Part shown: piece by piece, positions 29,448 to 60,830 of the stretch
Layout of the letters: every line of letters begins with the position of its first letter
Numbering within the stretch: position 1 is the stretch's first letter
Assembly (NCBI GenBank): GCA_032622095.1
Contig: CP136066.1
Location: 204,434,978 to 204,498,977, forward strand
From: Siphonodentalium dalli
Taxonomy: Eukaryota > Mollusca > Scaphopoda > Gadilida > Siphonodentaliidae
Length of the DNA stretch: 64,000 nt
Reading direction: 5' to 3'
Program-made: the position numbers and the translations under genes
The notes under the pieces: model-generated
The model's database searches: none
Told to the model about the DNA's origin: nothing
Seen by the model: only the letters and a program-made list of their open reading frames with translations

Positions 29448-29847
29448 TTAACCCTTTACCCAACAGAACGGCCCTGTGCCAATGCATTCTCTTATATATG
29501 CGAGTCGACCATAGGTCGCCTCGCATATATAAGAGAATGCATTGGCTTAACACATTAAAAATTATAAAATTGTTAAAGAATGTAAGAAAAAATGGTAAAA
29601 AGTGTTAAAAAAAGATTTTTTTTAGGCCAATGCATTCTCTTATATATGCGAGGCGACCTATGGTCGACTCGCATATATAAGAGAATGCATTGGCACAGGG
29701 CATAACTGTAACTATCACAATGTGGTCAAGGAGCCGGTTCCAATGATATCCATATTTGTATGGTTCTATTGAGACAGACCGAAGATATTTTAGGCTGTTG
29801 AAGCTTTATTTGGCCGGTTTTGGCCGGTTTGTTGGGTAAAGGGTTAA
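29448..29847. mobile_element. Type-B core MITE (TTAA-flanked), full length
   Basis: TTAACCCTTTACCCAACAGA at the left, ..gttgggtaaaggg TTAA at the right. Two inverted palindromic cores (about 29477-29546 and 29627-29695) lie around the linker 'aaaattgttaaagaatgtaa'. The right arm carries 'atgatatccatatttgtatg'. Confidence 0.9.
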
Positions 29848-30185
29848 ACAAATTTAAAATCAAAACCGTTTTGGGTTAGAGACTTGATCGGTGATGTAGG
29901 CGTCTGTCCCTGGTTTTGTTGTCCTATGATGTTCAATGGGCGATACATATGGCTGCTCGCCTCAAATTAAATAACAAGACTGATATAAAACAAACAAGAC
30001 ACTTTATTGAAGGCGCTGAATGTAAAAGAAGCGTAAACAGAAATGCTTAGAGACAAAACAACAATACAATGAGCAACAAATCATTTAAATCTTCTATTCT
30101 ATAAACGTATATCGGCAAAACATATCTGAACACACGAATTGGGACGTAATGTCATTGGCAATATTACATGTACATACATATAGAG

Positions 30186-30332
30186 GATCTACAAATGGTC
30201 CCTAGGTTTATAGCGAAATTTACAAAACGAGTCCAGTAAATTAGGTCTGGACCGAGCCTTTTAGCCAAATATATATACTGGACGAGTTTTGTAAATATCG
30301 ATATAAACTGGGGACGAGTTGTAGATTATAAT
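30186..30332. repeat. Short foldback ('ctacaa..gtccc' type), copy 1
   Basis: 'tttatagcgaaatttacaaa' with 'acgagtccagtaaa' is mirrored by 'ggacgagttttgtaaata' and 'tataaactgggg'. A relative is at 50846-50940. Confidence 0.6.
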
Positions 30333-30977
30333 TATTACTTGATCCAAAACCTCCATAAAATATACTTAAAATCAATAAATGGGACGAGAAACTAAGAACG
30401 ACTTCTATAAGGCGTACGATGACGTTTCACATAACCAGGCGCTGTTTGCTCGCATAAAGGTATAGTCCCTAGATACATAAGACGTATTTAAAGCCGTAAA
30501 TTTAATGAAATAGTTTTTTAAACTATATGCAATATCAATCACAGTGACCGATTCTTCTTCATTGCAAATCTCTCTATTCCGAATCACATTTGCAACAATA
30601 ACACGTCTGGGTACGCCTGGCACTATTTACTGTTGTGCAATGACCGTTGCATATCATTATTATAGAATGTGTTTAATGAAAGGAATAAGGTCGGATCATG
30701 TAATATATATAATTCCCGAGTCAGCTGCCTAATTCTGTAATTATACTGATGCCTTTAAATTTGTGATTCAATTCTAAACAAACTATCAACAATGTTTTGT
30801 TTTGTAAGAAAAGCATCGATGCACATAGTTGACTCAAATGTATTTCATTTGTCAATATACTACCAATAAAAAGTCCCTTAAGCAGCTATCTAATGGTATC
30901 AAATTATCAAACTTCTAGTTTTATATTACCACAGCGTTTAGTCGTGATATTATCTGTATATGTCAGCTGATACGCTG
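30333..30977. other. No gene seen
   Basis: A 72-codon minus-strand frame (30623-30405) is unrecognised. The rest is AT-rich without repeats I can name. Confidence 0.4.
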
Positions 30978-31248
30978 TTAACTCTTTCGTGACAGGAGCA
31001 GCGCTGGTGCGGCAATAAAGATCCTGTGCCAGTACATTCTCATATATTATGCAAGTCAACAGGTAGCCTCGCATATATAAGAGAATGAACTGGCTTACAA
31101 TATCAAGGTAAATATTGGCAGGTCAATGTATTATCCAATATATGCGAGGCTCCATATATAGGGGAGACTCGCATATGCATTTTTAAGAGAATGCATTGGC
31201 ATATGGTTTTCGTAAAATGTCAGGAAGCTTCAGTCATGGAAGGGTTAA
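30978..31248. mobile_element. Type-D core MITE (TTAA-flanked)
   Basis: Left end 'TTAACTCTTTCGTGACAGGA' with 'gcagcgctggtgcggcaata', right end 'cagtcatggaaggg TTAA'. Two diverged cores are separated by the 'caaggtaaatattggca' linker. Confidence 0.75.
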
Positions 31249-31485
31249 CGAGTAGTTCCCTTAGGACATGTTAAGATAATAAGTTCCACAAACAGGTTGT
31301 TTATTTTTTTTTGTCTGTCGTCTGCTGGTTTTTCCTGAACATCCTTCAAAATGAATAATATATCATTCCAGTGTATGCTTTTATAACTGAACGGGAGAAT
31401 CCATTCAGTAACTAAGGGGTTAAGCCCTCATGCCAGCACGTGCCACGTGTATAGGATATTTGTTTTTGGTTTAACGTTACAGCCG

Positions 31486-31734
31486 TTAACCCTTCCATGA
31501 CTGGAGCTTCCTGAATTTTTTCGAAAACCCGTGCCAATGCATTCTCTTATATATGGCAGTCTCCCATAGGGAGCCTAGCCTATATGAGATTATACATTGA
31601 CCTAACAATATATACCTTGACCGTGTAAGCCTGTGCATTCTAATATATATGCGAGGCTAATAATGGGAACATATCATCTGAACATGTCCTAAGGGAACTA
31701 TTCGTCAATGAGTCATTGGTAAAGAAAGAGTTAA
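31486..31734. mobile_element. Type-D core MITE, rearranged
   Basis: Starts TTAACCCTTCCATGACTGGA; cores are diverged. The right part carries 'gaacatgtcctaagggaact', also seen inverted near 31250-31275. Confidence 0.65.
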
Positions 31735-31968
31735 CCCTTCCATGAAGCTTCCTGACATTTTACGAAAACCCTGTGCCAATGCATTCTCTAAAATATAGGG
31801 AGCCTCGTATAAATCAGAGTATAAATTGGCTTAACCTTGATCTTGTAAGCCTGTGCATTCTCTTATATATGAAAAGTTCCATATATCGGAGACTCGCATA
31901 TACAAGAGAATGCACTGGCACAGTATCTTTATTGCTGCACCAGCTAGCTCCCACCATGAAAGGGTTAA
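31731..31968. mobile_element. Type-D core MITE, directly adjacent copy
   Basis: Starts TTAACCCTTCCATGAAGCTT and ends 'ccaccatgaaaggg TTAA', with the right arm 'atctttattgctgcacc'. It shares the TTAA at 31731-31734 with its left neighbour. Confidence 0.75.
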
Positions 31969-32292
31969 GTTATACCGCGACTGACCACGTGTGCGAGCAG
32001 CTATAACATCGTATTCTATAATGTTGCACTATAATGATCTCACCTAAAAAACGCTACTTTATGGTTACCCAATGTTATCTCCGATTTCAGAGTATGCCGT
32101 CCGCTTGGTACTGAGGGGTCACTATCGAAGACAGGCTCAGGTTACTACGAGTCGGGCGGCTGGTTCGATTGTGCCAAGGAAAACAAATCTAACGCGCGAA
32201 ATTCGGCAACAAATGTCTGAGTTTCTACTTCGTGAAAGTTAAAAGTAGTATGTCCATTATAAATCACAGCTGTTCGTCTCAAGGTTGATATA
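31969..32292. other. No gene seen
   Basis: Unique-looking sequence between MITEs without coding or RNA signals. Confidence 0.4.
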
Positions 32293-32751
32293 TGTGACCC
32301 GCCATATCAAATCCAGTCGTTAAGTCTGGATTTTTTTTTTACCCTGTGCCAATGCATTCTCTTATATATGCGAGTCGACCATAGGTCGCCTCGCATATAT
32401 AAGAGAATGCATTGGCCTAACAATTTTTATCATGTTTTTTAAATAAATGTTTCTTACAATTTTTAGGACATAACATAAAAAACATCCATTACCCTGCAGG
32501 GAGCCCCACACATATATAGAAGCATATAGAAGAGTGTCGTCTGCTCATGTTTGTCTGGGGCTCTGTATGGGTGAAATTATAAAATTGTTAAAGAATACAA
32601 GAACAAATTATTAAAATTGTAAAAAATTGTTAAGCCAATGCATTCTCTTATATATGCGAGGCGACCTATGGTCGACTCGCATATATAAGAGAATGCATTG
32701 GCACAGGGTAAAAAATCCCGACTTACGACTGGATTTGATATGGCGGTCACA
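32293..32751. mobile_element. Type-A core MITE (TA-flanked)
   Basis: Ends tgtgacccgccatatcaaat and inverse, flanked by TA. Inside are two palindromic cores in opposite orientation and, between them, a third hairpin (gagcccca ... tggggctc). The TA flanks and termini suggest Tc1/mariner-type mobilisation. Confidence 0.85.
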
Positions 32752-33149
32752 TATACAGTCTCTTTGAAAAGCTGACGAAAATCCTATATCAGAATGACGT
32801 CTCCCTAGAACTCTCTATTAAAATTAGGTTCTGTGTTGAAGGGATTCCCTCCATTTCATTGGAGAGTGGCGCAGACTGTGCGCGATTTCATTGGTTTCTG
32901 GCATAGCAGATCACGTCGGAGATCAGAAGTCAATTACGCGTTGACAATTTTCCCACGCATTGTCAAATTCAACTTGTTGGAAAACTGAATAAAGGCGATA
33001 TATCCATAATTCATTATGCTCATCGCAATATAGGTGACATCATCTTCGAGTTTTGTTTTATCAGTCAACGATATTAATGACTGATTATTCTTTCGCATCT
33101 AGTTGTATTTATAACTATTTCTAAATACTACGATTCTCACAAACATTTA
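32752..33149. other. No gene seen
   Basis: Unremarkable sequence. Confidence 0.4.
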
Positions 33150-33157
33150 CTATGCAC

Positions 33158-33496
33158 CAGGGTTGGGGTAATCGTAATCAGTAGGCCTAATCGTAATCAA
33201 AGTAATCGATTACAAAATGTTGAGTAATCGCATGTAATCAGTAATCATGCATTTTTTGATTACAATTAATCGTAATCGTAATCGTAATCGATTACTTTCA
33301 AATGTACCTGTAGTCATGATTACATTTTGATTACTTTTTGATTACTTTTACTAAAATAGCTATTGGATATTGTCACAATGTAGCAATGTGGAGTGTGCAG
33401 AGATACAAACATCATATCAGAAAGTCAGAAATCAAAAGTAATTGTAATAATTGTAATCGTAATCGATTACATTGGCATGTAATCGCCCCAACCCTG
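33158..33496. mobile_element. hAT-type MITE with perfect 8-bp target duplication
   Basis: Begins cagggttggggtaatcg and ends cgccccaaccctg. Direct repeat ctatgcac at 33150-33157 and 33497-33504. The interior is built of 'taatcgtaatcg' and 'cgattac' runs. An 8-bp duplication with CAGGG ends is diagnostic of hAT. Confidence 0.92.
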
Positions 33497-33568
33497 CTAT
33501 GCACTACATATTTGGAAACGGTTTATTACGTTATGTTGGGAATGCCGCGTCGTCGTAGAAATGAAATA

Positions 33569-33908
33569 TTAACCCTTTACCCAACAAAACGGCCAAAACC
33601 GGCCAAATAAAGCTTCAACAGCCTAAAATATCTTGGGTCTGTCTCAATAAAACCATACAAATATGGATATCATTGGAACCGGCCCATTGACCACATTGTG
33701 ATGATTACAGTTATGCCCTGTGCCAATGCATTCTCTTATATATGCGAGTCGACCTTTTTACCATTTTTTCTTACATTCTTTAACAATTTTATAATTTTTA
33801 ATGTGTTAAGCCAATACATTCTCTTATATATGCGAGGCGACCTATGGTCGACTCGCATATATAAGAGAATGCATTGGCACAGGGCCCTTCTGTTGGGTAA
33901 AGGGTTAA
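33569..33908. mobile_element. Type-B core MITE (TTAA-flanked), left core truncated
   Basis: TTAACCCTTTACCCAACAAA to ..gttgggtaaaggg TTAA. The left core stops after 'atgcgagtcgacc' and joins the linker; the right core is complete. Confidence 0.85.
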
Positions 33909-34839
33909 TGACACTTCTAGAGACGTAATTACGATACAGGATTTTCGTCGGCTTTTCAAAGAGACTAGGTCTATATATAGGCCTACAGGAAAATTGACTG
34001 AAAATTGCTATCTATATAGCTGTCGCCTGTCACTGTTTCTGCGACTCTTTTGTTTGTTTATTGGCGCGCAGTATCTTGTTTAATAGACTGGTTCCTGGTC
34101 CAAAACTGAACAAATCTGAAAGCGTAGTAACCTGTCCCCCTCCAGCGTAGCGCTCTCTCAACATATCAACAGTGTGTATGGGTAGACAGACAATAAACAT
34201 TATTCAATTAACAAAACGCAATAATTCCACATTTCAGGCCACTATTAATTGTTCACAGTCTTTCCAATATTCAACTAGTAAATGTATGATTCCGACACAC
34301 ATCCATGAAATTTACGTTAACTGATGCACAGAAGACACTCCTCTGTGTATACAGGAATGGTTGACAATATAAGCCAATACAAATAAGAAATGAGCAGTAT
34401 AGGTATACGTGTAAGTACATGTGCACGTATGTGTGGTTGATTATGTCGTTGTCGTAACGTATTATTACGCCCTCTATAGTGTGTATACAGTGAGGCTTAT
34501 CTGGCGCTGTCATAGAAGCTACATGGGGTAACTTTGATTAATAATGTACTCGCTACATTGCCTACTGGTTAGACTTTTTGCAGGATATATGTATTCACGG
34601 ACGTATCTTCGCGGACGCCTCATTGTTGCAGTATGCAACTTTTATGACCGCGTTAATTGCTTTCGATATTTAGGTATGAACAATGGCTGGGCCACTCCTG
34701 AAGATATTATCGCGGGAACATAATGAGTAATATAACGGCTAACATTGCTGATGAAGTATGTCTCGGTTGAAATGTAGAATAAAAGGTCGGCCGACCACAG
34801 TGTCCCCCGACAACGTGGCAAGTCGATGCCGCTTTGTTA
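33909..34839. other. No gene seen
   Basis: 'actggttcctggtccaaaac' at 34088 resembles the insert end near 27070. No coding signal. Confidence 0.4.
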
Positions 34840-35430
34840 AAGAAATTTAAAAAAATGTTGAAATGTTCTAAGTCGAAACGGTTAATAATTCCGTTAAAAA
34901 CTAATTTGTCCGTCATCTATATACATGTTGCACATCTCCAATATGTGGGTAACAATACTCTGAAGTTTCAAATATCTACGATCAAAACTGTAGGAGTTGA
35001 TTACACCATGAAGGTACCCTCATACAGAAAATTCTAACAAATGTTTTTCAAAGTCGAAAGGCCCATAACTCTGGGAAAACTCATTGGATCAGACTCAAAT
35101 TCGAACTCAACCTGTATCTTAATATGACTGATCCACATGAAAACGTTATTTGCAATTAAAGGATCCGAACTTGAGATATCATTCGGAAACCGAAAAAGTG
35201 AGAAATGTTCTAAGTAAAAATAAAGTTGAAAAAAGGGATATAACTCCATAAAAGAACATCGGATCAAACCCAGAATTGCAGAGCACCTGTGTTCTTGGTT
35301 GAGACACGTACATACATACCGGATGATCATTACTGGAGTTATAACTCCGGACAGACGGGCAGACGCACGGACGGATGGGACGGACGAGGCTGATTACAAT
35401 AGTCCCCCAAAAATAATTTTTTCGGGGGAC
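34840..35430. repeat. Dispersed non-coding repeat
   Basis: Two related halves ('gaaatgttctaagt.gaaa' at 34859 and 35205). The end reads 'gagttataactccggacaga', 'cgggcagacgcacggacgga' and 'cccccaaaaataattttttc' with a short palindrome, a style seen in high-copy mollusc repeats. Confidence 0.5.
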
Positions 35431-35695
35431 AATAAAGGTCGTATTGCGAAGTATCGGTAGTGTATTTATTCCGATTAGTACAATTTTGACCCGCATTTAG
35501 AGGCTTTCTGGTGTGGTGAATGAGAATTCTTCAGTGATAAGCCGTTGTTGTTGTAATAATTTGAAGGATTAGTTGTTTTAACGGAATTCTGAGGTGGTGC
35601 ATTCATGAAATCAGTATATTTTATATTTCATATATAATATGCCTAATAATATGATCTTGAGGGGGTTACCATTTCTGACTATGGTTTTCTTGTAC

Positions 35696-35984: not shown

Positions 35985-36442
35985 TGTGACCCGCCATATC
36001 AAATCCAGTCGTAAGTCGGGATTGTTTTACCCTGTGCCAATGCATTCTCTTATATATATGCGAGTCGACCATAGGTCGCCTCGCATATATAAGAGAATGC
36101 ATTGGCCTTACAATTTTTTACAATTTTAATAATTTTTTCTTGTATTCTTTAACAATGTATAATTTCACCCATACAGAGCCCCAGACAAATATGAGCAGAC
36201 GACTCTTCTATATGCTTCTATATATGTGTGGGGCTCCCTGCAGGGTAATGGATGTTTTTTATTTTATGTCCTAAAAATTGTCAGAAACATTTATTTTAAA
36301 AAAATGATAAAAAATTGTTAGGCCAATGCATTCTCTTATATATGCGAGGCGACCTATGGTCGACTAGCATATATAAGAGAATGCATTGGCACATGGTAAA
36401 AAAAATCCCGACTTACGACTGGATTTGATATGGCGGGTCACA
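35985..36442. mobile_element. Type-A core MITE (TA-flanked)
   Basis: Same layout as 32293-32751, with both cores and the central gagcccca/tggggctc hairpin, in the opposite orientation. Confidence 0.88.
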
Positions 36443-37231: not shown

Positions 37232-37317
37232 ATGTGCGCACCAAAATAAGACATTTTAACTGCAATTTGACTAGGCTGTGTCGTCATGTTAAAGGCCCAC
37301 TTAATTTTCAAATGCAA

Positions 37318-37977
37318 ATATCACATTATACATAACATATTCCATATAATATACCATTATACATAACATATTCCATATAATATCACATTATACATAACAT
37401 ATTCCATATAATATCACATTATACATAACATATTCCATATAATATCACATTATACATAACATATTCCATATAATATACCATTATACATAACATATTCCAT
37501 ATAATATACCATTATACATAACATATTCCATATAATATCACATTATACATAACATATTCCATATAATATCACATTATACATAACATATTCCATATAATAT
37601 CACATTATACATAACATATTCCATATAATATCACATTATACATAACATATTCCATATAATATACCATTATACATAACATATTCCATATAATATACCATTA
37701 TACATAACATATTCCATATAATATCACATTATACATAACATATTCCATATAATATCACATTATACATAACATATTCCATATAATATCACATTATACATAA
37801 CATATTCCATATAATATCACATTATACATAACATATTCCATATAATATACCATTATACATAACATATTCCATATAATATACCATTATACATAACATATTC
37901 CATATAATATACCATTATACATAACATATTCCATATAATATACCATTATACATAACATATTCCATATAATATACCAT
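37318..37977. repeat. 31-bp satellite, about 21 copies
   Basis: Unit cattatacataacatattcc + atataatat, with two variants (tatcacatt and tatac catt) in blocks that alternate. Copies are almost identical, implying recent expansion. Confidence 0.97.
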
Positions 37978-38696: not shown

Positions 38697-41600
38697 CTGC
38701 AACAAATATGCTAGGTTTATAATATATAGTATATATACATGTGGCTAACTATCCTCATGTTTTCCCATATATTTTATTCTTGTTTTAAATACATTTGAGA
38801 ATGTTATATTTTATTCTTTATTTTCGTTGGGTTGTCTCTGGGTCGTGTTGTCCCTGTGTCGTGTTGTCCCTGTGTCGGGTTGTCCCTGAGTCGGGTTGTC
38901 CCTGGTCGGGTTGTCCCTGGGTCGATCGGGTTGGGTTGGGTTGTCCATGAGTCGGGTTGTCACTGGTTCGGGTTGTCACTGGGTCGGGTTGTCCCTGGAT
39001 AACGGTTGCCCCTGGGTCGGGTTTTTACTGGGTCGAGTTGTTACTGGGTATAGTTGTCACTGGGTCGGGTTGTCCCTGGGCCGGGTTGTCTCAGGGTGCT
39101 GGTTGTTCCTGGGTCGGGTTATTACTGGGTCGAGTTGTTACTGGGTCGAGTTACCACTGTGTCGGGTTGTCCCTGTGTCGGGTCGTCCCTGTGCCGGGTT
39201 GTCCATGGGTCGGCTTGTCCCTGGATCAGGTTGTCCCTGTGTCGGGTTGTCCCTGTGTCGGGTTGTCCCTGTGTCGGGTTGTCCCCGTGTCGGGTTGTCC
39301 CTGGGTCGGCTTGTCCCTGAATCAGACTGTCCCTGTGTCGGGTTGTATCGGGTTGTCCCTGGGTCGGGTTGTTACTGGGTCGAGTTGTCCCTGGGTCGGG
39401 TTGTCCCTGGGTTGGCTTGTCCCTGGGTCAGGTTGTCCCTGTGTCAGATTGTCCCTGTGTCGGGTTGTATTGGGTTATCCCGGGGCCGGGTTGTCCCAGG
39501 GTCGGGGTATCCCAGGGTCGAGTTGTCCCTGGGTCGGGTTGTTACTGAGCCGGGTTGTCTCTGGGTCGGGCTGTCCCTGGGTCCATCGGGTTGGGTTGTG
39601 TTGCCCCTGGGTCGGGTTGTCCCTGGATCAGGTTGCCCCTGGGTCGGGTTTTTACTGGGTCGAGTTGTTACTGGGTAGAATTGTCACTGGGTCGGGTTGT
39701 CCCTGTGTCGGGTTGTCCCTGGTCGATCGGGTTGTTACTGCATGGGTTGGCTTGCCCCTGGGTCATGTTGTCCCTGTGTCGGGTTGTATTGGGTTGTCCC
39801 GGGGCCGGGTTATCCCAGGGTCGGGTTGTCCCTGGGTCGGGTTGTTACTGGGTCGAGTTGTCACTGCGTCGGGTTGTCCCTGTGTAGGGTTGTCCCTTTG
39901 TATGGTTTCCTCACTTTCCTGTGTCAGGTTGTCCCAGGGTCGGCTTGTCCCTGGATCAGGTTGTCCCTGTGTCGGGTTGTCCCTGTGTCGGTTTGTTTCG
40001 GGTTGTCGTCGGGCCGGTTGTCCCTGGGAAGGTGTTGTCCCAGGGTCGGGTGGTCCCGTTCCATGTTTATGTATCCCTGCCTCATTATATAAGACCCGGA
40101 TGAAACTCACCTCAGCTCTGGATAGAACAACGTATATCAGCAGCCGATCTCTGGTACCGAGACCTTTAGTTGAGTACCGTAACGTTTTGGCATGATGTTT
40201 ATCTGGATCCACTGTGTTTAAGACTAAAAAAAAAACAAGAGAGTAAGCGACTGTTGCGAGTTAGCTTATGGAGCATCGCATATATAAGAGATGCACTGGC
40301 TTACAAGGTCAAGGTAAATCATTTTAGGCCAATGTATTCTCGTATATATGCGAGACTCCTTATAGGAGACTCACATATACCAGGAAGCTCCCGCCATGAA
40401 AGGGTTAAAGACTGCTTGATTCAAAATTACATTATATATATATAATAATATTCTAATTCACTCTATCCCACACGGAGATGGAAATTAACCCACTCTTTAC
40501 AAACGCTCGTTGGTGAGTGGTTCCCTAAGGAAATGTTCAGATAATAAGTTCAACAAATGGCCATTGTTGAACTTGTTATATCGACACTAGTCTTCCCACC
40601 AAAGAATATGAATCATTCTGCACTGTATTATATGTGACCCGCCATATCAAATCCAGTCGTAAGTCGGGATTTTTTTTACCCTGTGCCAATGCATTCACTT
40701 ATATATGCGAGTCGACCATAGGTCGCCTCGCATATATAAGAGAATGCATTGGCCTAACAATTTTTTTTACAATTTTAATAATGTTTTCTTGTAATCTTTA
40801 ACAATTTTATAATTTCACCCATACATAGCCCCAGACAAACATGAGCAGACGACACTCTTCTATATGCTTCTATATATGTGTGGGGCTCCCTGCAGGGTAA
40901 TGGATGTTTTTTTATTTTATGTCCTAAAATTGTAAGAAACATTTTTTTTTTTTAAATGATAAAAAACTGTTAGGCCAATGCATTCTCTTATATATGCGAG
41001 GCGATCTATGTGCATTGGCACAGGGTAAACAAAATCCCGACGGTCACATATATTTCCATTGAAAGGTATACGTTTATAACTGAGTGGGATAAACCATTTA
41101 GAATAGAAAGGGTTAAAGAAGTTGTTTCTTTTTTGTTTTATTTTGAAGATATATAATCAGATTCGTGTTGTAAGTTGTGGCACGACAGAGATAGACCATC
41201 TTTAATATTAGAAAGTATCGGTATATTTAATCAACGCTATGTCCCTCGCATGTCATGTTCTGTGTTCAATAGGAGATAACTCTACCGTGTAAAGAATTGG
41301 TGAGTCCACTTACCTAATGCTTTCAGGAGTTTCAAACAGTTGCCACTGAACCACATTTTGAAGGCTTCTTTTATACTCATTCCTTTAATCTAAAAGTTGA
41401 TGAAAGAGAATATACATGTACCCACAAATTAAACGCACGTTCTTTCAAACTTCTAGTACTCGATTAATCCTACGAATCTATTCAAATAACATGCTATCAC
41501 CCCTGGTTAAGTGGTCCTGTTAATGTGCTATGATGCAAATGATAAGTTTACACCAAACCACAGGGAAGAAATGATTGTTATGATACATAAATTACGGAAA

Positions 41601-44600
41601 GATGGACTGAATAGACAATTATGTTATATTTACAAACAACATATATCAACACCAGTATTCATTTATATGTAAATCGCGATAATTCGTGGTAAATTCGGTG
41701 TTGCAATACTTGAAATACACATATTTCAGACTGAAGGTGCACGAAATCAGGTCTCCATATTCACAACTCTGAAATGATACCGTGGCCATATAGAGTCCAA
41801 GTTAATTAAGTCAACTCAATATTTAAAATACGCAGACAACTGTTGGTTTTTTTCTAACTCAGCAGCCTACCGGTGTGGATTTAGTTCTTTCGAGATCATT
41901 TCAACGATATCCATAACTATGTTGGCAATAATAGTGAAAATAATCCTCCGCATCTCACGAGAGGAGAAAAACCGTACATTACTCAGCAAGCCTTGAAATA
42001 GGGTGTCTGTCATTTGCAGAATGTGGTCCACAGAGGGTGAATTTAGTGATGCTACCCCGCATAGCGGGCTAGCATCACCAAATTCACACTCTGGGAACCT
42101 CATTCTGCTGAGGTGTAAGCAGAATGAGGTCCCCAGAGGGTGAATTTGGTGATCACTAAATTCACCCTCTGGGGACCTCATTCTGCAAATGACAGACACC
42201 CCATTTCAAGGCTTGCTACTCAGAACAGTTGACTGTTGTGTTTATTATATTCTCTAGACCACAATGAAACACCAAATTCGATCAAATACGTTCTTAAAGC
42301 TACAACATTTCAAGCCATTTATGTTAATATAACGCGGAAGGATACCGAATGACGCAAATATTGACGCCATGACGCAATGCTGAGAGTAGGATAACATCTT
42401 GAGAGTAGGATAACATCTTGAGAGTAGGATAACATCTTGAGAGTAGGATAACATCTTGAGAGTAGGATAACATCTTGAGAGTAGGATAACATCTTGAGAG
42501 TAGGATAACATCTTGAGAGTAGGATAACATATTGAGAGTAGGATAACATATTGAGAGTGGGATAACATCTTGAGAGTAGGATAACATCTTGAGAGTAGGA
42601 TAACATCTTGAGAGTAGGATAACATCGTGAGAGTAGGATAACATCGTGAGAGTAGGATAACATCGTGAGAGTAGGATAACATCTTGAGAGTAGGATAACA
42701 TCTTGAGAGTAGGATAACATCGTGAGAGTAGGATAACATCTTGTGAGTAGGATAACATCTTGAGAGTAGGATAACATCGTGAGAGTAGGATAACATCGTG
42801 AGAGTAGGATAACATCGTGAGAGTAGGATAACATCGTGAGAGTAGGATAACATCTTGAGAGTAGGATAACATCGTGAGAGTAGGATAACATCGTGAGAGT
42901 AGGATAACATCGTGAGAGTAGGATAACATCGTGAGAGTAGGATAACATCGTGCGAGTAGGATAACATCGTGAGAGTAGGATAACATCGTGAGAGTAGGAT
43001 AACATCGTGAGAGTAGGATAACACCGTGCGAGTAGGATAACACCGTGGGAGTAGGATAACATCGTGAGAGTAGGATAACATCGTGAGAGTAGGATAACAT
43101 CTTGAGAGTAGGATAACATCGTGAGAGTAGGATAACATCGTGAGAGTAGGATAACATCGTGAGAGTAGGATAACATCTTGAGAGTAGGATAACATCTTGA
43201 GAGTAGGATAACATCGTGAGAGTAGGATAACATCTTGAGAGTATGATAACATCGTGAGAGTAGGATAACATCGTGAGAGTAGGATAACATCGTGAGAGTA
43301 GGATAACATCGTGAGAGTAGGATAACATCTTGAGAGTAGGATAACATCTTGAGAGTAGGATAACATCTTGAGAGTAGGATAACATCGTGAGAGTAGGATA
43401 ACATCGTGGGAGTAGGATAACATCTTGAGAGTAGGATAACATCGTGAGAGTAGGATAACATCTTGAGAGTAGGATAACATATTGAGAGTAGGATAACATC
43501 GTGAGAGTAGGATAACATCTTGAGAGTAGGATAACATCTTGAGAGTAGGATAACATCGTGAGAGTAGGATAACATCGTGAGAGTATGATAACATCTTGAG
43601 AGTAGGATAACATCGTGAGAGTAGGATAACATCGTGAGAGTAGGATAACATCGTGAGAGTAGGATAGCATCTTGAGAGTAGGATAACATCGTGAGAGTAG
43701 GATAACATCGTGAGAGTAGGATAACATCGTGAGAGTAGGATAACATCGTGAGAGTAGGATAACATCGTGAGAGTAGGATAACATCGTGAGAGTAGGATAA
43801 CATCGTGAGAGTAGGATAACATCGTGAGAGTAGGATAACATCGTGAGAGTAGGATAACATCGTGAGAGTAGGATAACATCGTGAGAGTAGGATAACATCG
43901 TGGGAGTAGGATAACATCGTGAGAGTAGGATAACATCGTGAGAGTAGGATAACATCGTGAGAGTAGGATAACATCTTGAGAGTAGGATAACATCGTGAGA
44001 GTAGGATAACATCGTGAGAGTAGGATAACATCTTGAGAGTAGGATAACATCGTGAGAGTAGGATAACATCGTGAGAGTAGGATAACATCGTGAGAGTAGG
44101 ATAACATCTTGAGAGTAGGATAACATCGTGAGAGTAGGATAACATCGTGAGAGTAGGATAACATCGTGAGAGTAGGATAACATCTTGAGAGTAGGATAAC
44201 ATCGTGAGAGTAGGATAACATCGTGCGAGTAGGATAACATCTTGAGAGTAGGATAACATCGTGAGAGTAGGATAACATCGTGAGAGTAGGATAACATCGT
44301 GAGAGTAGGATAACATATTGAGTAGGATAACATCTTGAGAGTAGAATAACATCGTGAGAGTAGGATAACATCTTGAGAGTAGGATAACATCGTGAGAGTA
44401 GGATAACATCGTGCGAGTAGGATAACATCGTGAGAGTAGGATAACATCGTGAGAGTAGGATAACATCTTGAGAGTAGGATAACATCTTGAGAGTAGGATA
44501 ACATCGTGCGAGTAGGATAACATCGTGAGAGTAGGATAACATCTTGAGAGTAGGATAACATCGTGAGAGTAGGATAACATCTTGGGAGTAGGATAACATC

Positions 44601-47600
44601 TCGCGAGTAGGATAACATCGTGAGAGTAGGATAACATCTTGAGAGTAGGATAACATCTTGAGAGTAGGATAACATCGTGAGAGTAGGATAACATCGTGCG
44701 AGTAGGATAACATCGTGAGAGTAGGATAACATCTTGAGAGTAGGATAACATCGTGAGAGTAGGATAACATCGTGAGAGTAGGATAACATCTTGAGAGTAG
44801 GATAACATCGTGCGAGTAGGATAACATCGTGAGAGTAGGATAACATCGTGAGAGTAGGATAACATCGTGAGAGTAGGATAACATCGTGAGAGTAGGATAA
44901 CATCTTGAGAGTAGGATAACATCGTGAGAGTAGGATAACATCGTGAGAGTAGGATAACATCGTGAGAGTAGGATAACATCTTGAGAGTAGGATAACATCG
45001 TGAGAGTAGGATAACATCGTGAGAGTAGGATAACATCGTGAGAGTAGGATAACATCGTGAGAGTGGGATAACATCGTGAGAGTAGGATAACATCGTGAGA
45101 GTAGGATAACATCTTGAGAGTAGGATAACATCGTGCGAGTAGGATAACATCGTGAGAGTAGGATAACATCTTGAGAGTAGGATAACATCTTGAGAGTAGG
45201 ATAACATCGTGAGAGTAGGATAACATCGTGAGAGTAGGATAACATCGTGAGAGTAGGATAACATCTGGCGCGTAGGATAACATCTTGAGAGTAGGATAAC
45301 ATCTTGAGAGTAGGATAACATCTTGGGAGTAGGATAACATCTTGCGAGTAGGATAACATCGTGAGAGTAGGATAACATCGTGAGAGTAGGATAACATCGT
45401 GAGAGTAGGATAACATCGTGCGAGTAGGATAACATCGTGAGAGTAGGATAACATCGTGAGAGTAGGATAACATCTTGAGAGTAGGATAACATCTTGAGAG
45501 TAGGATAACATCGTGAGAGTAGGATAACATCGTGAGAGTAGGATAACACCGTGAGAGTAGGATAACATCGTGAGAGTAGGATAACATCCTGAGAGTAGGA
45601 TAACATCGTGAGAGTAGGATAACATCTTGAGAGTAGGATAACATCATGAGAGTAGGATAACATCTTGAGAGTAGGATAACATCGTGAGAGTAGGATAACA
45701 TCGTGAGAGTAGGATAACATCTTGAGAGTAGGATAACATCTTGAGAGTAGGATAACATCGTGAGAGTAGGATAACATCGTGAGAGTAGGATAACATCGTG
45801 AGAGTAGGATAACATCGTGAGAGTAGGATAACATCGTGAGAGTAGGATAACATCGTGAGAGTAGGATAACATCGTGAGAGTAGGATAACATCGTGAGAGT
45901 AGGATAACATCGTGAGAGTAGGATAACATCGTGAGAGTAGGCTAACATCGTGAGAGTTAGTGTTGAAACGATTAGTGGTTTTGAGGAATCGACTAGTCGC
46001 CAGAGGGAATCGACTACTAGTCGACTAGTCGGACCCCTTCCGAAACTTACCGTTTTGTGCTCATATACGTATATAATTTGCCGTTTGTTTTGAGTACCAG
46101 TAACTAACTTTGCATTTTCGAACGCAAAGCAAGACGTGATTAAACACTATTTGCCGTGATTATTTGGCTTAATATCACTGAAGGTTAATAGGTAATTAAT
46201 TTGTCCCAGGTATATGATGTTTTATGACAATCAAATTACCATCCAGTTGATGTATGTATCTAAACGGTGGTGACAACACCTGATCGATCGCGGAAACGCT
46301 ACGGATTACGGAGTGGAAGCGCGTGCAACAATCAGAAACCGGTGCATTATTCTATATGTTTTGTGTAAAAATGTTCCTTTAAAATTGATATGGTATCATT
46401 GGTATGGTATACCGGGCCGTACCGGTTCTTACATACAATCGAACATCGTTGTTTTCGAACTTGCCCAGTGTGCTTGTCACCGATTGACTTCACAAACGGG
46501 TGTACATGAAGAAATGCAAGATATTTTGAGAAACGAACTTCATCTCCGACAGAGTCAAACAAAAGTTACAATATAAATGTTATAACAGCTGTAGTGCGTA
46601 CAAGCCTTTTATGCTCGCAGATGTCATGTACATATATCGGACACGGAATGTGGTAAAGTTCCCTGTAAATATATAGTCCGCATATATTAAAAAATGGGCC
46701 ATGCATTGCGTACATAATGTTGTTCCTTGTATTCATTGCAAGGTCACGATATGACATAGTTTAATCACGGACATTCATTTTCCCGCCAAAACGCACGTGT
46801 TTTCACTGTTTGATTTGATCGCGTACATAATTGTCTCTCGTGCATGGTACATTGTAAATATATATACAATTTTACTCGCGAGTCCCCGAATACACAATCG
46901 ATCGTGTCAGTTTCAGAAATAAAACTGCGCAGACCGGCGATGTTAATAGTACATTTCAATGCGATGTCGTATGTTCTATATTTAGCCCGATTCCAGGAAT
47001 TTGCGTCATCCAGATTACGTTTCTGGGAACAGCTTTGTCACCGCCCAATTCCACGAAGGATTTAAGTTTGAGGTGCTAAAATACATTGTAAGTTTTCACA
47101 AACACAGCCCATATAAACGACGTGGGATTTCCGAAGTGACTCGCCAGTTTAGTTCGAAATACGCGACGCTATTCGATGCATAGCATGGCCGACCGCGGGT
47201 TGGCTTTATATTTATATCTATAATACAATATATCTAGAACGTGCGATCGTATACGCTCACCCATGCGTCAGTTGATGCATGTGGTGGTTGTAAAAAATAT
47301 CACACAATTTTACAAATAAACTTTAAAGGTATACTGACATAGTACTTCAATAAACTATAATATATTGGATTTGTTATTAAACTTAAAACTTAATAATGTC
47401 ACCTCGCAACTAACTTGATTGAAGTTGAGTCCTGCACACCTGCAAGCACGTTGACCAGATATCACTCAGATCAATTCCGTCACGCCGAAATAGACACGGT
47501 TGCGATAGGCGCTGATTCTGTGAAGTTGATTATCAAAGCCGGTCGTCTCAACTTCAAAGAATAAGCCGGCGCGGCGCCGACAAATGCATTGAGTTGAGGT

Positions 47601-50600
47601 CATTGGGTTTCGCGCTCGTGCATGACCACCAAATACTGAAAGCAGTTATCGCATCAAAGGGACAACAAAGAAGGCTTTAGCAAGCTAATTGTGATTGTGT
47701 ATTTCGATAGCCTGATTGTTTAAATTGACCAGTAATTCGGCAACGGCACTGCTTTCGCGATGGCATAATGGTGGTGGGTGTGTTCCGACTAGTCGACTAG
47801 CCGATTTCGGAATCGACTAATTTAATAATCGCGTCGATTTCGATTAGTCGATTAATCGTTTCAACACTAGTGAGAGTAGGCTAACATCGTGAGAGTAGGA
47901 TAACATCTTGAGAGTAGGATAACATCGTGATAGTAGGATAACATCGTGAGAGTAGGATAACATCGTGAGAGTAGGATAACATCGTGAGAGTAGGATAACA
48001 TCGTGAGAGTAGGATAACACCGTGCGAGTAGGATAACATCGTGCGAGTAGGATAACATCGTGCGAGTAGGATAACATCGTGCGAGTAGGATGACACCGTG
48101 AGAGTAGGATAACATCGTGAGAGTAGGATAACATCGTAAGAGTAGGATAACATCGTGGGAGTAGGATAACATCGTGAGAGTAGGATAACATGGTGAGAGT
48201 AGGATAACATCTTGAGAGTAGGATAACACCGTGAGAGTAGGATAACAACGTGAGAGTAGGATAACATCGTGAGAGTAGGATAACATCGTGAGAGTAGGAT
48301 AACATCTTGAGAGTAGGATAACATCGTGAGAGTAGGATAACATCGTGAGAGTAGGATAACATCGTGAGAGTAGGATAACATCGTGAGACTAGGATAACAT
48401 CTTGAGAGTAGGATAACATCGTGAGAGTAGGATAACATCGTGAGAGTAGGATAACATCGTGCGAGTAGGATAACATCGTGAGAGTAGGATAACATCGTGA
48501 TAGTAGGATAACATCGTGAGAGTAGGATAACATCGTGAGAGTAGGATAACATCGTGAGAGTAGGATAACATCTTGAGAGTAGGATAACATCGTGAGAGTA
48601 GGATAACATCTTGAGAGTAGGATAACATCGTGATAGTAGGATAACATCGTGAGAGTAGGATAACATCGTGAGAGTAGGATAACATCGTGAGAGTAGGATA
48701 ACATCGTGAGAGTAGGATAACATCTTGAGAGTAGGATAACATCGTGAGAGTATGATAACATCGTGGGAGTAGGATAACATCGTGCGAGTAGGATAACATC
48801 GTGAGAGTAGGATAACACGTCCTGTCTTCTGTGAGTGGGGATATGATTTATATTTTGACGTAAAATGTTGATGAAAACATAATAAAAATGAGTATTTGGA
48901 GCATGCATAAGGACCCATCTTCACAACAAAATAATGATGCAGTTATGTTCTACTCGATGTAAATTTTCGTCTTTAATATACACGCGTATATTCGGGGATG
49001 ATTAAGAACTGAAACTGTCATCAGATCAACTGTGCTGCGCGAATTAAAATACGAGTAATGTAATGAGATATGTGCCGAGGACAGGGTCTCTAGATAAGTG
49101 AACTCGAGGTTAACCCTTTACCCAACAGAACGGCCCTGTGCCAATGCATTCTTTTATATATGCGAGTCGACCATAGGTCGCCTCGCATATATAAGAGAAT
49201 GCATTGGCTTAACACATTAAATTTTTTTTTAGGCCAATGCATTCTCTTATATATGCGAGGCGACCTATGGTCGACTCGCATATATAAGAGAATGCATTGG
49301 CACAGGGCATAACTGTAACTATCACAATGTGGTCAAGGAGCCGGTTCCAATGATATCCATATTTGTATGGTTTTATTGAGACAGACCGAAGATATTTTAG
49401 GCTGTTGAAGCTTTATTTGGCCGGTTTTGGCCGGTTTGTTGGGTAAAGGGTTAATGGTCGAAGCAACAACTATGATATAGTTTCTTATTTTAACCTATGA
49501 CTTGGAACTGATATAATTTCGATCCGTATATTTTGCTCAATAAAGCAATATATATATAGGTAAACATTAAATTGATGTTTGACATGACACGGTCGGTCTT
49601 CGGTTACATAGGTCAGAACATAAGCAAAGTGGGGCATTGTTTGAGATATGTTCACACGTGGCTTGCAAGTATTGTATTACACAAATCAAACACGTGTACA
49701 TTGGAATTGTCTATAAAAGCAACATTTGATTAAATGTTCTGGTCAAACAATGCTAAGCAGATGACAGACAGAGAAACACCCACTGAACTGCTATTCAATA
49801 TTGTGTATGTATGATCAGATAATAGAGTTAATAAATTGAATAATGCATTAGGTAAACATCTCTACAGATGAATTATAACAGCCATCGGCTACTATCCAGT
49901 TTCCGAAGTGGTATGCATATACATATGCGGAGCTTTCGCATATGTATTATATTACACGATCCTACCCTTATTCCATTCAATAAACCCATTCTATAAATTG
50001 TGATATGAAACGGTAGTTGCATAACAGGAAATAGTGCCAAGTGACTTTGACTTCCGGTGTGTCGCCTGTTTACATTCCCTACAGCCTACGCTGCGTCTCA
50101 AAATACTATGGCTTCCAATATTTTTCAACAAACTCTAATGAATGAAGAGTTTGAAAACTTATTTCTTTAAAAATACGCCAATAAACACGCCAAAAAAGTT
50201 TTTATTTATCTGGGACTATTTCTTTACGAGGGCAAACAACGCATAGTTACGTGAAACGTAATCGCAGGCCTTTTAGAAGCCGATGTTATTTTCACATCCC
50301 ATCTGTTGATTTAACCCTTTGAGTGCCAGGTCCGATTTTTGTATCAACCCATATACCCTGTGCCAATGCATTCTATTATATATGCGAGTCGACCATAGGT
50401 CGCCTCGCATATATAAGAGAATACATTGGCCTAACAATTTTTCACCATTTGTTATTATTTTTTACAATTTTTTACAATTTCAATAATTTTTTCTTATATT
50501 CTTTAACAGGCTTATTTTGTAGGTTTAGTGCCAGGGAATCTTACGTTTTTCATGGGAATCAAAATTATTACTATGAACACTTGGTGATAGGTTTGAGTTA

Positions 50601-53600
50601 TAACATGCCCCTAAGGTTTTATCCAGTTTATTTTTAAATTCGCTATAGCATGCTTAAGCATACCCAAAAATATTCAACCCAAAAAAAAAAAAATCTAAAA
50701 AAAAAAAAAAAAGAAGTTTATTTTTTATTTTTTTTAGGGCCGATTTTACAGACCGTAAATTAGGGCCGATGAGATCGGCCCCTGGCACTGAAAGGGTTAA
50801 ATTTGTTTTGTCACGGTCTTGGATCATGAAATAAATTGAAACTACCAATTAGTCCCCAGTTTATAGTGAGATTTAACAGACCTAATTTACTGGACTCATT
50901 TTGTAAATTCCGCTATAAACTGGGGACTCATTGTAGATCATCTATATAAAGCATAACGTAAAATGAAAGTATTCCTTTAGAAAGTAGTTTTATCTATCTG
51001 TAACGGAAGTCACAATAATTAACCAACAATCATTGAATCGCCGAGGATTACCACAACCGGATGACACATAGAGAAACTGTTCATTTCACACAAGTATATG
51101 CCATAGGCATTCCTTACTATATGAGGTATATAGCGAGTTCCAGGCACTGGTGAACGTAAGTGTTCTTTAATTGAATTGGGAACATTCTTCTCAATTGTGC
51201 AGTGAATTGTGTTCTTATATTTGAGATTTACCATTCAATGGCATATCGGCACCGAAATATTGTACCCACCCACCTCCCCACACTGTGTTCATTCTTGATC
51301 TGGGTGAATACATATAGAATATGTAGCTAGTGTCGTCGCTTAAATTGTTTATGTCCGTGAGGGGGATTTGAGCATCTATAGATGCCAAATCCCCCGAGTG
51401 GACATAAACAGTTTAAGCGATGACATTAGCTACATATTTTATTTATCCATCGCACAAAACTTGCCTTTTGTGAGGTAAATCTGTCATTTTCCTCAGTTTT
51501 ACATTCGTTACTTCGATGACGCCATTACATTTATTAGGTCAAGCAAACCAATTAGTATTCATGACGTGTTAAAACCGGAGTGCAGCTTAGAGCGAAATAG
51601 TTCATTTGCATTTTTACATTTATTATAAGCAGACCTTGTTCTGATGATTTATAGATGTTTTAGAGCTAAAACATATATCATTTTACGAATTATTTTAGTG
51701 AATTATACACGATAAGAACGTTCTGAAATCACAATGACGTCATTAAGGCCGGTTGACGTCCCTAGTTACCTGCGCAATTTGCATATCAAATTACGTCATA
51801 AAAGTAGTACTAACCTAATAAACCTACGTTGACCTAATAAAGCTACATTGACGTAATAAACGTAACGTTTATTAGGCAGGCTTTATGTAGTCAATAGACG
51901 TAGTCAGCGGTGGATAAATACATGTACGTCACATATGTGACCCGCCATATCAAATCCAGTCGAAAGTCGGGATTGTTTTACCCTGTGCCAATGCATTCTC
52001 TTATATATGCGAGGCGACCATAGGTCGCCTCGCATATATAAGCGAATGCATTGGCCTAACAAATTTTTTTCATGTTTTTTAAATAAATGTTTCTTACAAT
52101 TTTTAGGACACAAAATAAAAAACATCCATTACCCTACAGGGAGCCCCACAGATATATAGAAGCATATAGAAGAGTGTCGTCTGCTCATGTTTGTCTGGGG
52201 CTCTGTATGGGTGAAATTATAAAATTGTTAAAGAATACAAGAACAAATTATTAAAATTGTAAAAAATTGTTAGGCCAATGCATTCTCTTATATATGCGAG
52301 GCGACCTATGGTCGACTCGCATATATAAGAGAATGCATTGGCACAGGGTAAAGAAATCCCGACTTCCGACTGGATTTGATATGGCGGGTCACATATAGTC
52401 TAGCTTCCTCACTCACCTCCGCAAATTTATCGAATGCAGCTACAGCAGCCTCTCGATCCTTTTGTAAAACTATTGGCAGCACATCTTCGATTTCAGGGTC
52501 GTCACCTTCGCTGGTTTTCTGTTGATGAATGTAAACATACATATTTAACGCTTTACTTAGTTAATGAGAATACGAAGAGACGACAAACAGCCGAACATAT
52601 GATACCGATTATTGGAGAATTTATTTGAAAATTTATAATCACCTCTAGATGGGAGCTATAAAATTTGAACAATTTTCGATAAAAAAAACATGGCCGCCAG
52701 CAGCCATCTTGGATTTTACTCTTTACATGAATAAATTTGTTGGCACACACTAGACCACATCCTTCATCTGATTATCATTAAACTTCATATGGATCTTCGG
52801 GGTTACTTCTAGATGGGAGCCTCCTATTTTGACTGAAATTTGTTGCAAAACATGGCCACCAGCTGCCATCTTGGAATTTACTCTTTGTATGACTAAATCC
52901 TTTGGCAAACCCTACAGACCACATCCCTCATCTCATCTCATCACCAAACTTCATATGGATCTATTCATCGGTGACAAATATGCAGATAATAAGTTCTACT
53001 GCCGTTTGATGAACTTATTATCTGAACATATCCTAAATCGTCAATGAGTATTAAAGGCCCACTTAATTTTCGAATCACAAGATCATATTATATATACAAC
53101 TTATTGCACCGTTTGAAAAAGGAAGCTCCAAAACATTGTAGTATTATCAACTTATCCGTCAATAAACTGTGAACATGTTGTTTTTGTCAAGGTGCCGGTG
53201 TGTGTTATGTGCTTAATTTCGATCTCGTCTGTACTGCAAGTTTATTATTCTCCATGGAAGGGGAATAACTCTATATCTTAGTTGTGAATTATGATGAATT
53301 CTGGGGTAAATAACGTGGAAAGGCATGGTGAATCTGAGAATCTCTATCACTTGGTGGACACTCCTAGGCCACAGCCGTTCTGTATTATGTTGGAATATAT
53401 ATATGTTTGGTTCCTCTTCCAAATGGTATTCGAAAATTAAGTGAGCCATTGATAAAGAAATGGTAAAACCGACAAATATATGTACTATTCACAGCATCTA
53501 ATTTTGTGAAAATATGACCATGTTTATATTATGTTCAGCAGTTAGCTATACATACTGGAACATGTAAGTATAGATCGAGCTTCTCAATTTAAGACTCCAT

Positions 53601-56600
53601 GCAGGGAATCTACCGGAAGCCGTTTCCAAGGTTACCGAGAGAACGTCTGTGAACTATATGTTCGATACTGACAATCTGGGGGTGGTTTACCGGAAATTGG
53701 ATACACGAGATAGTGGCAATTTTAGGAGTGAATGCCTCATTGGCAGGTAATGGCGACATTTCGCTGTAGAATCGTTGCTATGGCGACGCTGTTGTTTTAT
53801 GGTAGTTTATTCTGATTGAATGATCGACATCGGCTCAGTAATAACTTCCACATAAAATGGTTACCACATTGGAGGTTGCCGTCTGTCATTTGTGTATCGG
53901 GTAAATTGGCTTATACATGCTAGCAACAGAATTCATTGGCTTGAATTCAGGGGCGATGGGGACAGGGGTTTGTGGGGGGGGGGGGGGGTCTCACACCCCA
54001 TCTTTGGTAAACAGTTTCAACAGTTGGAAATGTCATGTCTGACACAACATTCTACACCACATAATTATGTGACCCGCCATATCAAATCCAGTCGTAAGTC
54101 GGGATTTGTTTACCCTGTGCCAATGCATTCTCTTATATATGCGAGTCGACCATAGGTCGCCTCGCATATATAAGAGAATGCATTGGCCTAACAATTTTTT
54201 ACAATTTTAAATAATTTGTTCTTGTATTCTTTAACAATTTTATAATTTCACCCATACAGAGCCCCAGACAAACATGAGCAGACGACACTCTTCTATATGC
54301 TTCTATATATGTGTGGGGCTCCCTGCAGGGTAATGGATGTTTTTTATTTTATGTCCTAAAAATCGTAGAAACATTTATTTAAAAAAAATGATAAAATATT
54401 GTTAGGCCAATGCATTCTCTTATATATGCGAGGCGACCTATGGTCGACTCGCATATATAAGAGAATGCATTGGCACAGGGTAAAAAAAAATCCCGACTTA
54501 CGACTGGATTTGATATGGCGGGTCACATATATAAAGGTTGAAATAGTCCTCATTGTTTGGATTTGTTTGGATTTCCAGCCAGTAAGTTATAAAGTGAGAA
54601 TGGAATGTGTTGGTTTTTAGACCAACAGTAGCAAATTTTTCTACGTTTGGTGAAATGTTTTGGTTTGAAATGGCCATCAATTCAGGGGGGAGTCTGGAAA
54701 ACATTTGCAGACACGAGACTCAAAAAATAATTTCCGACCTCAAGGTACCCACATCGGTACCTGCAAAAATAAAAATAATTTCCTTGGCAACATTTGGGAT
54801 TTAGGACCCACCCCCTTATCCCATATTGGCACTTTTAAATGCTTTTTTACTAATTTTGTTATTGGGAATACCATCACAAATGTATTCCTTGTTCCACTCT
54901 CTATTTTACAAGTCACTAAAATTGACTAAATATATGTGCCATGATCAGTGCCATCCTACCATACCATTTAGTCTTCGGCATTATTATTGACTATTGATAA
55001 AAATAAATGGCGTGAAACAATTCTATCCCAATCTGCTTCAATTATATTAATATATAGGTAAAGTACTTTATTCTCTGAAACAAACTATGCACAAACTTGC
55101 CTAAACACCAAATCTAACCCCATGCAACATAATTTTGAGCGTGATATTGTTGTAAAATCCAGTGTTAAAACCAGGTGACTTCTAGGTCCATGCATATTGT
55201 GTCGCAATGTGGTGACTGATCGGGGGTCCAGAGCTAGTCACTATGCTAGAAACTATGGTTTGATATCTGGAAGGACGATATAGCACTACACTACAATATA
55301 TAATGCGAAAATATAGTCGTTTTTGTTTCGGGAGATTCGTATTCAGTTTTATAGGCAAACATACTTTATCAAGTGATTTAGCAAACACAAACTTGGCTAC
55401 TTCGAGTTATGTCTGCCAGAAAGCCTGCATTTGAAACGGTGTTGGAACCTCAAACAATATTGACCCCCTACACACTGCCCTACAGGGATCTAAATGTGTT
55501 CTAAATGATATATGTATTTAGATAAGAGACTATATAAGTTTAATAGTGGACAAACATGAGTAAATTTTGTCAGGTTGGAACTTTCCAACAGTTGGAAAGT
55601 TTCAAGTACCACTTAAATAGTTTCAACCTAAGAGGTGGGGTGCAAATGGACTTTCACGGATAATGGGAAGGGGTGCAGTTGGAAATTTCAAGGTGGAAAC
55701 ACACCAATGGAGACCCTCTAGCCACGTCCCTGATTCAATTTAATCTCAATAGCCTCAAGTGTGCATTGAGAGTTTTTTTGTTCACGGCGGAGACGATTGG
55801 CTCAATTGAACCATGCACATGGGCCTGTGACACGCTCCGTTGCCTGCCCCATTTTGCACTTCCCATATACGCCACTTCTATATATACGCGCCTGCTTTAC
55901 GTTAATGGTATACTATATATAACAAGAAAACTAAGATGCATGCATCAGGTCGGCCGTGAACTATCTACCATAGAATTGTTGTAGCTATCGATTATACATT
56001 TTGAAACACCTGTCTGTATGTATGTATGTGTGTATGCGTGAATGCATGTGTGTATGTGTTATAGACTCTAACACTGCTCGAATTTGGTATTTAACGTGTC
56101 AACTTGACCTCGCTCATAGGCATGTTTCTGGACCTTGACCGATCCGACTAAAAATGTGTGTGTAGGACTACTTCGATCCCGGGAGCAATATGGACGGGTC
56201 CAATTTCACGTGGGACCATGTTCTCGAACGTGCTGACTTAGGCATGTTTCTGGACCAATTGAACAATAGTTTGGCCAGACGCTGTATATACTGGGTACTG
56301 TCCAGATGGAGGCGATCACAAAAAAAATCCCTAACTAGCCCGAACGAAGTCGAGTACATCAGCTAGTTTAATATATATTTTGGACATTTGTCTGTCTGTT
56401 TGTCTGTTAGCTATGGCCGGGAAAACTGCCGGACAGATTTGACGAAATTTGATACCTAGGGGAAATTATTTCCAGGGAGTATTTTGGACGGGTCAAATCT
56501 TGATCCCGACCTGACTTTGACATTCAAAAAGATCAATTCAAGGTCAAATCTGGTAAAACGGAAGTATTTCAACGAAATTTGATACCTACTGTTACTTTTG

Positions 56601-60755: not shown

Positions 60756-60830
60756 CTGAAATTAGAGTCATTCATCATGTGATGAGCGCAAAAAATCCGG
60801 TCTGGTTTTTTTTTGCTCACATGGTAAGAC

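Follow-up and report, generated by a model that had tools for sequence, protein, structure and literature searches.

A stretch of the genome of the scaphopod Siphonodentalium dalli raises the question of how one palindromic body can be carried by MITEs whose ends appear unrelated. The stretch, called the window throughout, comprises 64,000 nucleotides, and a preliminary description had noted in it several kinds of elements, here types A to D, built around inverted copies of a common core. We found this observation to be real: the named motifs are present, the elements lie in the window, and the centre of the core occurs throughout the genome. The reading that we prefer, at a probability of roughly 70%, is that these are modular MITEs whose body captured ends and exchanged them between end types. 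As a pattern, this capture and exchange is well supported, and the mechanism that may have produced it is set out below together with its rivals.

The window elements and their hairpin core

Through motif scans and reading, six type A, four type B, two type C and about five type D elements were found in the window (Table 1). They also lie outside the interval 29448-54527 to which the pattern had been assigned. The A, B and C copies in the window are 256-490 bp long, and they have the general properties of MITEs, being short, non-coding, high in copy number and bounded by terminal inverted repeats and target duplications.

Table 1. Positions of the type A to D elements in the window and of the two cores of the reference copy.
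Feature	Position	Strand	Remarks
Type A, reference copy	54068..54527	+	45-bp end, CCCTGT, hairpin, linker, GC-rich middle (M), second linker, hairpin, ACAGGG, end; TA flanks
69-bp hairpin core, left copy of reference A element	54119..54187	+	
69-bp hairpin core, right inverted copy of reference A element	54406..54474	-	
Type A	32293..32751	-	interior inverted relative to the copy at 54068
Type A	35985..36442	+	
Type A	40633..about 41048	+	right hairpin and end truncated
Type A	51936..52393	-	
Type A	61556..62012	+	
Type B	29448..29847	+	TTAA, short arm, hairpin, linker without M, hairpin, 153-bp long arm, TTAA
Type B	10585..10848	-	one fused hairpin
Type B	33569..33908	-	one hairpin partly deleted
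Type B	49110..49454	+	short linker
Type C	27649..27904	-	one hairpin, TTAA flanks
Type C	50311..50800	+	long form, one hairpin
Type D	about 30978..31248	-	diverged hairpins with another centre
Type D, two joined elements	31486..31968	+	
Type D, right part	40255..40408	-	diverged hairpins
Type D	60829..61096	+	
Type D, left part	59538..59900	+	two diverged hairpins; right end not found

The 69-bp hairpin copies in these elements are whole, partial or, in type D, diverged. Intact A and B elements contain two inverted hairpins with CCCTGT on the outer side of each, type C elements contain a single hairpin, and the diverged hairpins of type D have a centre that differs from that of A, B and C. The centre GTCGACCATAGGTCGCC occurs 19 times in the window within three mismatches, always inside an A, B or C element. 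Folded, the core gives a near-perfect hairpin of -35.4 kcal/mol, compared to an average of -6.6 over 200 shuffled sequences (z -15.6), and an Rfam search of the window at gathering thresholds gave no match.

Genome-wide counts were taken from the 2.23-Gb assembly of nine contigs. Exact matches to the 31-bp hairpin centre number 115,931 and there are none to the same pattern read backwards, so chance is excluded; the 24-bp A end has 14,897 exact matches, again with none for the backwards pattern. The best 40 of 1,404 candidate type A copies align over 457-460 of 460 bases with 97-98% identity, the query itself excepted. The hairpin consensus, drawn from 99 ungapped cores of full length that have a recognised end, does not differ at any of the 69 positions between A, B-short, B-long and C copies. 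The idea that A, B and C have the same interior is borne out for the core but does not hold throughout, as B is without the GC-rich middle and C has only one hairpin; nor do only the outer 50-90 bp differ, since the long arm of B measures 153 bp.

The GC-rich piece in the A interior is 80 bp long. Up to this piece, from which the B linker is free, the A and B linkers have 52 identities over 60 bp with one 7-bp gap. A relative of the piece adjoins TTAA on one side in two loci (L120, L121), and the middle may itself be an old inserted MITE. Both loci (L120:18-160 and L121:19-150) present the same arrangement, namely a 20-bp A end with the relative of the middle, TTAATA, and then a second A end.

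Among 27 bodies, the cores appeared to mutate more slowly (0.7-0.9%) than the interior between them (2.05%); we rejected this as a sign of constraint because the loci had been picked by exact core matches. The five intact A copies of the window, which were not picked in this way, show 6 differences in 690 core positions and 20 in 1,074 interior positions, too few to decide.

Several other observations concern the hairpin or its surroundings. A hairpin equal to the A/B/C consensus lies, with a diverged A interior, inside a dispersed repeat of more than 6 kb (L016 and the single locus L078/L084), and another copy of this repeat (L085) has a diverged hairpin only. The repeat was not adopted as the source of the body, and L084 has no ORF of at least 110 aa. 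A tandem duplication of a hairpin arm at L075:172-226 (CCCTGTGCCAATGCATTCTCTTATAATACCCTGTGCC...) is a possible slippage product. The window also contains two large arrays of one 19-bp satellite (TGAGAGTAGGATAACATCG; 42381-45957 and 47870-48817), with long open stretches in several minus-strand frames, and a 31-bp array (21 copies, 97% matches) near a decayed 16-bp array (GGGTTGTCCCTGGGTC; 37317-37972 and 38829-40057). At 22740-22935 there are about two copies of a 103-bp unit that on reading is a long palindrome (GCAGAATGAGGTCC...GGACCTCATTCTGC), and similar sequence is found in L029 and L059.

Two classes of target site

TTAA flanks types B, C and D, whose ends start CCCTT and all begin with TTAACCCTT. 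The CC[C/T]T terminal motif, as defined for the CMITE families (PMC2872659), is present in the B and C ends (CCCTTTACCC, CCCTTTGAGTG). An exact TTAA start was recorded in 84 of 91 B and C end matches in the sampled loci, a count restricted to ends aligned from position 1, which favours TTAA.

The type A ends (TGTGACCCGCC...) are mostly flanked by TA. Flank pairs of A-type ends, comprising A copies and copies of the A0 family described below, are equal at 2 bp in 22 of 30 cases compared to 12.3 expected by re-pairing, the 30 including two spurious rows (L103, L110) and three loci counted twice. At 3 bp there is one match (0.5 expected) and at 4 bp there is none. A Tc1/mariner MITE would have a strict TA duplication; TA/TA accounts for 16 of the 30 pairs here, and TT/TT, AA/AA and AT/AT were also found. 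On this evidence, one body moves with TTAA under B ends and with a 2-bp duplication under A ends. The suggestion that the flanks imply different transposase classes therefore holds for A against the rest, but not among the rest: B, C and D, with TTAA and CCCTT in common, are one target-site class, all of piggyBac type, and type A alone is different.

Ends without the body, and hosts without an insert

A-like ends also occur on elements that do not carry the body. This A0 family, found by a search with L124 and extended by reading nine further copies, has an unrelated interior, and the best 40 of 398 candidates are 85-94% identical, the query excepted. The A end consensus was taken from the ends of the five window A copies (one of the ten ends was cut two bases off, which leaves the consensus unaffected); of its 41 positions, 2 are different in the left end of A0 and 8 in the right end. 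One A0 copy (L138) has the exact A sequence as far as GGGATTT. Because both A ends are nearer to the left end of A0, the A element looks, by sequence comparison, as if one A0 terminus had been placed in inverted copies on either side of the body. A search for A ends with other subterminal sequence gave 85 places, by eye mostly single-indel A copies, in addition to L124.

The B end TTAACCCTTTACCCAACAG was likewise found without the body. It stands at both ends of 3.4 kb in L114, and at one end only in L115 and L116, where the 3.6 kb fetched contain no hairpin. These three loci were considered as autonomous B parents and rejected, having no piggyBac similarity. The corresponding search for C gave 58 places, by eye mostly deletion and microhomology derivatives of C, and the candidates L117 and L118 still contain the hairpin. 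At C3:289371064-289371098 and C9:83324211-83324245 a C end is fused straight to the hairpin at a common GTGCC, which is what microhomology joins would be expected to give.

Under the preferred reading of end capture and exchange, the body consists of the pair of inverted, perfect 69-bp hairpins and an AT-rich linker, with (A) or without (B) the GC-rich middle. It would not encode its own mobility; acquired ends, recognised by transposases, would move it. These would be piggyBac-type TTAA ends in B, C and D, or the A ends of another system with a 2-bp, mostly TA, duplication. The A ends would come from the body-less A0, presumably the older family, whose left terminus would have been joined to the body and then copied in inverted form on the other side, probably by strand switching or by repair templated by the inverted arms.

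The hairpins may have had a more active part in this, and we put forward tentatively, as a possibility, that the hairpin pair amplifies ends of any kind. Its inverted arms would copy any one-sided terminus to the other side and so make MITEs out of unrelated transposon fragments, with the result that one body rides at least two transposition systems. If this were true, such an event would have given rise directly to type A, both of whose ends resemble the left end of A0.

Nested insertion offers a different account, which we consider unlikely. Here the body would be a mobile MITE in its own right, with CCCTGTGCC...GGCACAGGG ends and a TA target, that inserted into unrelated host MITEs and was amplified with them. 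Consistent with this, TA bounds the body in A and C, and a palindromic TA target may be what the T-run and A-run around the body in A represent. At apparently unique sites there are six complete bodies (L038, L054, L066-L069) on which no A, B or C end was recognised, and end capture does not account for them. However, the B junctions are without TA, the TA in L064-L083 is uninformative because it was part of the search pattern, and A itself supplies a TA. When L067 was compared by eye with the neighbouring repeat unit, no clean TA duplication was seen. Nor were intact empty hosts recovered by searches requiring exact matches of 12-15 bases on each side and at most 30 bases between, a pattern that hosts with mutated ends would escape. 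An A-end palindrome without the body was found at one place only, a deletion derivative that keeps CCCTGTGCCAATGCATT, and the four candidate places for an empty B host all retain remnants of the body. Insertion into an A or B family still abundant in this form is not how the composites came about.

Association of ends and interiors in sampled loci

We examined which end goes with which interior in 63 loci, drawn from the first 100 core matches listed for contig 1, with paired cores merged into one locus. Nine units (18 places) of two tandem arrays with periods of 11.17 and 14.56 kb were left out, and some near-copies remain in the sample (L001/L002, L008-L010, L028/L036, L029/L035). These loci hold 107 hairpins of at least 55 bp. 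Where BLAST module mapping recognised both the outer and the inner module, 83 of 85 hairpins were concordant (51 B, 24 A and 8 C) and two were chimeras. In both chimeras (L059, L060) a C end is followed by the hairpin and then by the A-type linker and middle, and the second end is unrecognised; a third row with C and A (L062) was excluded by eye, as it rests on a 20-bp AT-rich match. The A interior without a recognised end was recorded for eight hairpins in six loci (L028/L036, L029/L035, L038, L054). The common end classes thus mostly have their own interior variant, and chimeras are rare in this sample.

The periodic arrays themselves lie at C1:742232-771526 and C1:826056-915866, where cores recur at about 14.56 kb and about 11.17 kb. 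The units that were read (L006, L011, L012) hold type B elements and look like large tandem repeat units. At C1:14252062-14252796 three A ends follow one another in direct orientation with a spacing of 355-356 bp and may form a tandem MITE array; tandem arrays of MITE units have been reported for CMITE (PMC2872659).

The concordance of ends and interiors could also be read as vertical descent from one ancestral MITE, whose ends diverged past recognition as the hairpin was conserved. The common start of the B, C and D ends and the diverged hairpin of D would fit such a history as well. The preliminary description had held that deeply split interior clades matching the ends would speak for it, and what was found goes half of this way: nearly all hairpins match the interior of their own end, but neither the chimeras nor the identical core fit a strictly vertical descent. 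A and B ends also exist on elements without the body. Taken together with the B-ended copies that follow, by which it is already contradicted for A versus B, descent of this kind is quite unlikely.

B-ended copies carrying the A body

The body following TA outside the usual A or C context was matched at 1,577 places, of which 100 were listed; 20 loci were fetched, and then five more rows with a B arm. In 17 of the 100 matches listed (of 1,577), the body is preceded by CAACAGCCTAAAATA, which is the B long arm cut short. In all eight fetched copies with such a junction (L071, L076, L077, L128-L132), B ends enclose an A body that is complete. In seven of them both flanks are TTAA, and the remaining copy, L071, has TTAA/TTGA. 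As L129 and L130 have common flanks, there are seven independent sites, six of them with TTAA on both sides. The identity of these bodies with the A body of the reference copy at 54068 is 96.5-98.1%. Near-identical A bodies (96-98%) thus occur between A ends and between B ends, which drift of the ends would not leave.

The arm junction is identical in seven of the eight copies, so one founder of the B-ended family probably transposed repeatedly. A perfect hairpin present more than 100,000 times is difficult to assemble, but it is extremely improbable that the chimeras are misjoined reads of this very abundant repeat, since one arm junction is present in seven of the eight fetched B-ended A bodies at seven different sites with TTAA and recurs in 17 of the 100 matches listed, a recurrence at many TTAA sites that misassembly would not produce.

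A tree was built from 35 bodies, of which 19 are A-ended, eight are B-ended, six have no ends and two have half an A end. A-ended and B-ended bodies are not separated in it, and the B label needs 6 changes compared to a shuffle mean of 7.3. Three of 32 inner branches are well supported, and an AU test does not reject the B-ended bodies as one clade (p 0.317). The tree shows that there is no deep split, and not the number or direction of exchanges.

In the model of captured and exchanged ends, later ectopic recombination or gene conversion within the near-identical hairpin arms would have swapped bodies between end types, in whichever direction, and some of the recombinants would then have transposed further. 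Repeated capture or exchange of ends had been proposed at the outset. This proposal gains from the unrelated ends on one body, the transposed recombinants and the body-less A and B ends, but loses the part in which B, C and D were separate classes.

Candidate transposase sources

The PF13843 profile gave at least 128 matches, with 116 of 649 candidate loci scored, and many of the frames are intact. Among the 28 piggyBac loci fetched from these 116, no exact B, C or D end was found, and none of them contains the hairpin. The closest ends in these 28 loci have 2 mismatches per 17 bases for C, 4 for B, and 5 and 4 for the two D ends; a B end at 4 mismatches is expected 0.6 times by chance. The near match to C, TTAACACGTTGAGTGCC, is a TTAA end that lies upstream of intact piggyBac frames in L086 (at 420) and L090 (at 3249, minus strand), with a chance rate of 0.005 per shuffled end. 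It is possibly a relative of the C transposase system. A further locus (L108) has the end TTAACCCTTTGAACCC with the partner TTAACTCTTTGAACCC. To judge from such likeness between termini, piggyBac elements with ends related to the MITE ends exist in this genome. The search for source transposases with matching ends, as first suggested, has therefore yielded one near match for C and no exact match in the loci fetched.

Among the matches listed, the stretch C1:161-178 Mb is rich both in piggyBac transposase matches and in B ends whose subterminal sequence is not that of the MITEs.

Comparison with known systems

It had been stated that no described family has this property, which has to be corrected. 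The CMITE families of Acropora corals (Wang et al. 2010, PMC2872659) differ in their piggyBac TIRs but have in common a conserved interior of 75 bp, whose origin the authors left open. As in our elements, CMITE families with different TIRs share an interior that is more conserved than the TIRs, and TTAA sites, CC[C/T]T ends and tandem arrays are described; one element with a mismatched interior and a new element made by CMITE insertion are also presented (PMC2872659). In contrast, all CMITE families as described there are TTAA-flanked and about 100 bp long (PMC2872659), whereas the A ends here are flanked by TA or another WW. The interior here is a pair of 69-bp hairpins, the copy number is far higher, and one body occurs in two target-site classes. 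When the published 60-bp CMITE interior consensus was compared to the window and the loci fetched up to L132, the best match was 16 bp (E 0.35), and the interior is unrelated.

Galileo/Foldback elements of Drosophila (PMC3573991) are similar in having chimeric copies, exchange through inverted arms, and subfamilies proposed to have been born by recombination. They differ in their long, internally repetitive TIRs, their P-element superfamily and their 7-bp duplications, and the Galileo chimeras reported are between subfamilies of one transposon and without matching duplications (PMC3573991). On reading, the arms of the window elements showed no tandem repeats. The highly conserved domains of SINEs, together with MER6 (PMC6887750), are another case of a conserved internal domain on elements with unrelated ends, the V domain being found in a MITE; that domain comes from a SINE and is not a hairpin pair, and the abstract makes no claim of an exchange of end types within one genome (PMC6887750). 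Types B and C resemble ordinary piggyBac-derived MITEs in their TTAA flanks, CCC termini and the lack of any coding capacity seen. Unlike these, the interior is common to several end types and not specific to one, and the 28 fetched loci include no parental transposase with exact ends.

A modular element with a shared interior therefore has a precedent in CMITE, and what is new here is one body across two target-site classes. No description of a MITE body common to TTAA and 2-bp target classes was found in the open-licence literature, which is weak evidence of absence.

Significance

The classification of MITEs by interior alone or by TIR alone would, as these elements warn, lead to conflicting families. 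How MITEs gain interiors unlike those of any parent transposon is an old open question. In this genome the likely end donor A0, the body and the recombinant products coexist in abundance, which makes capture, inverted duplication and exchange datable and testable.
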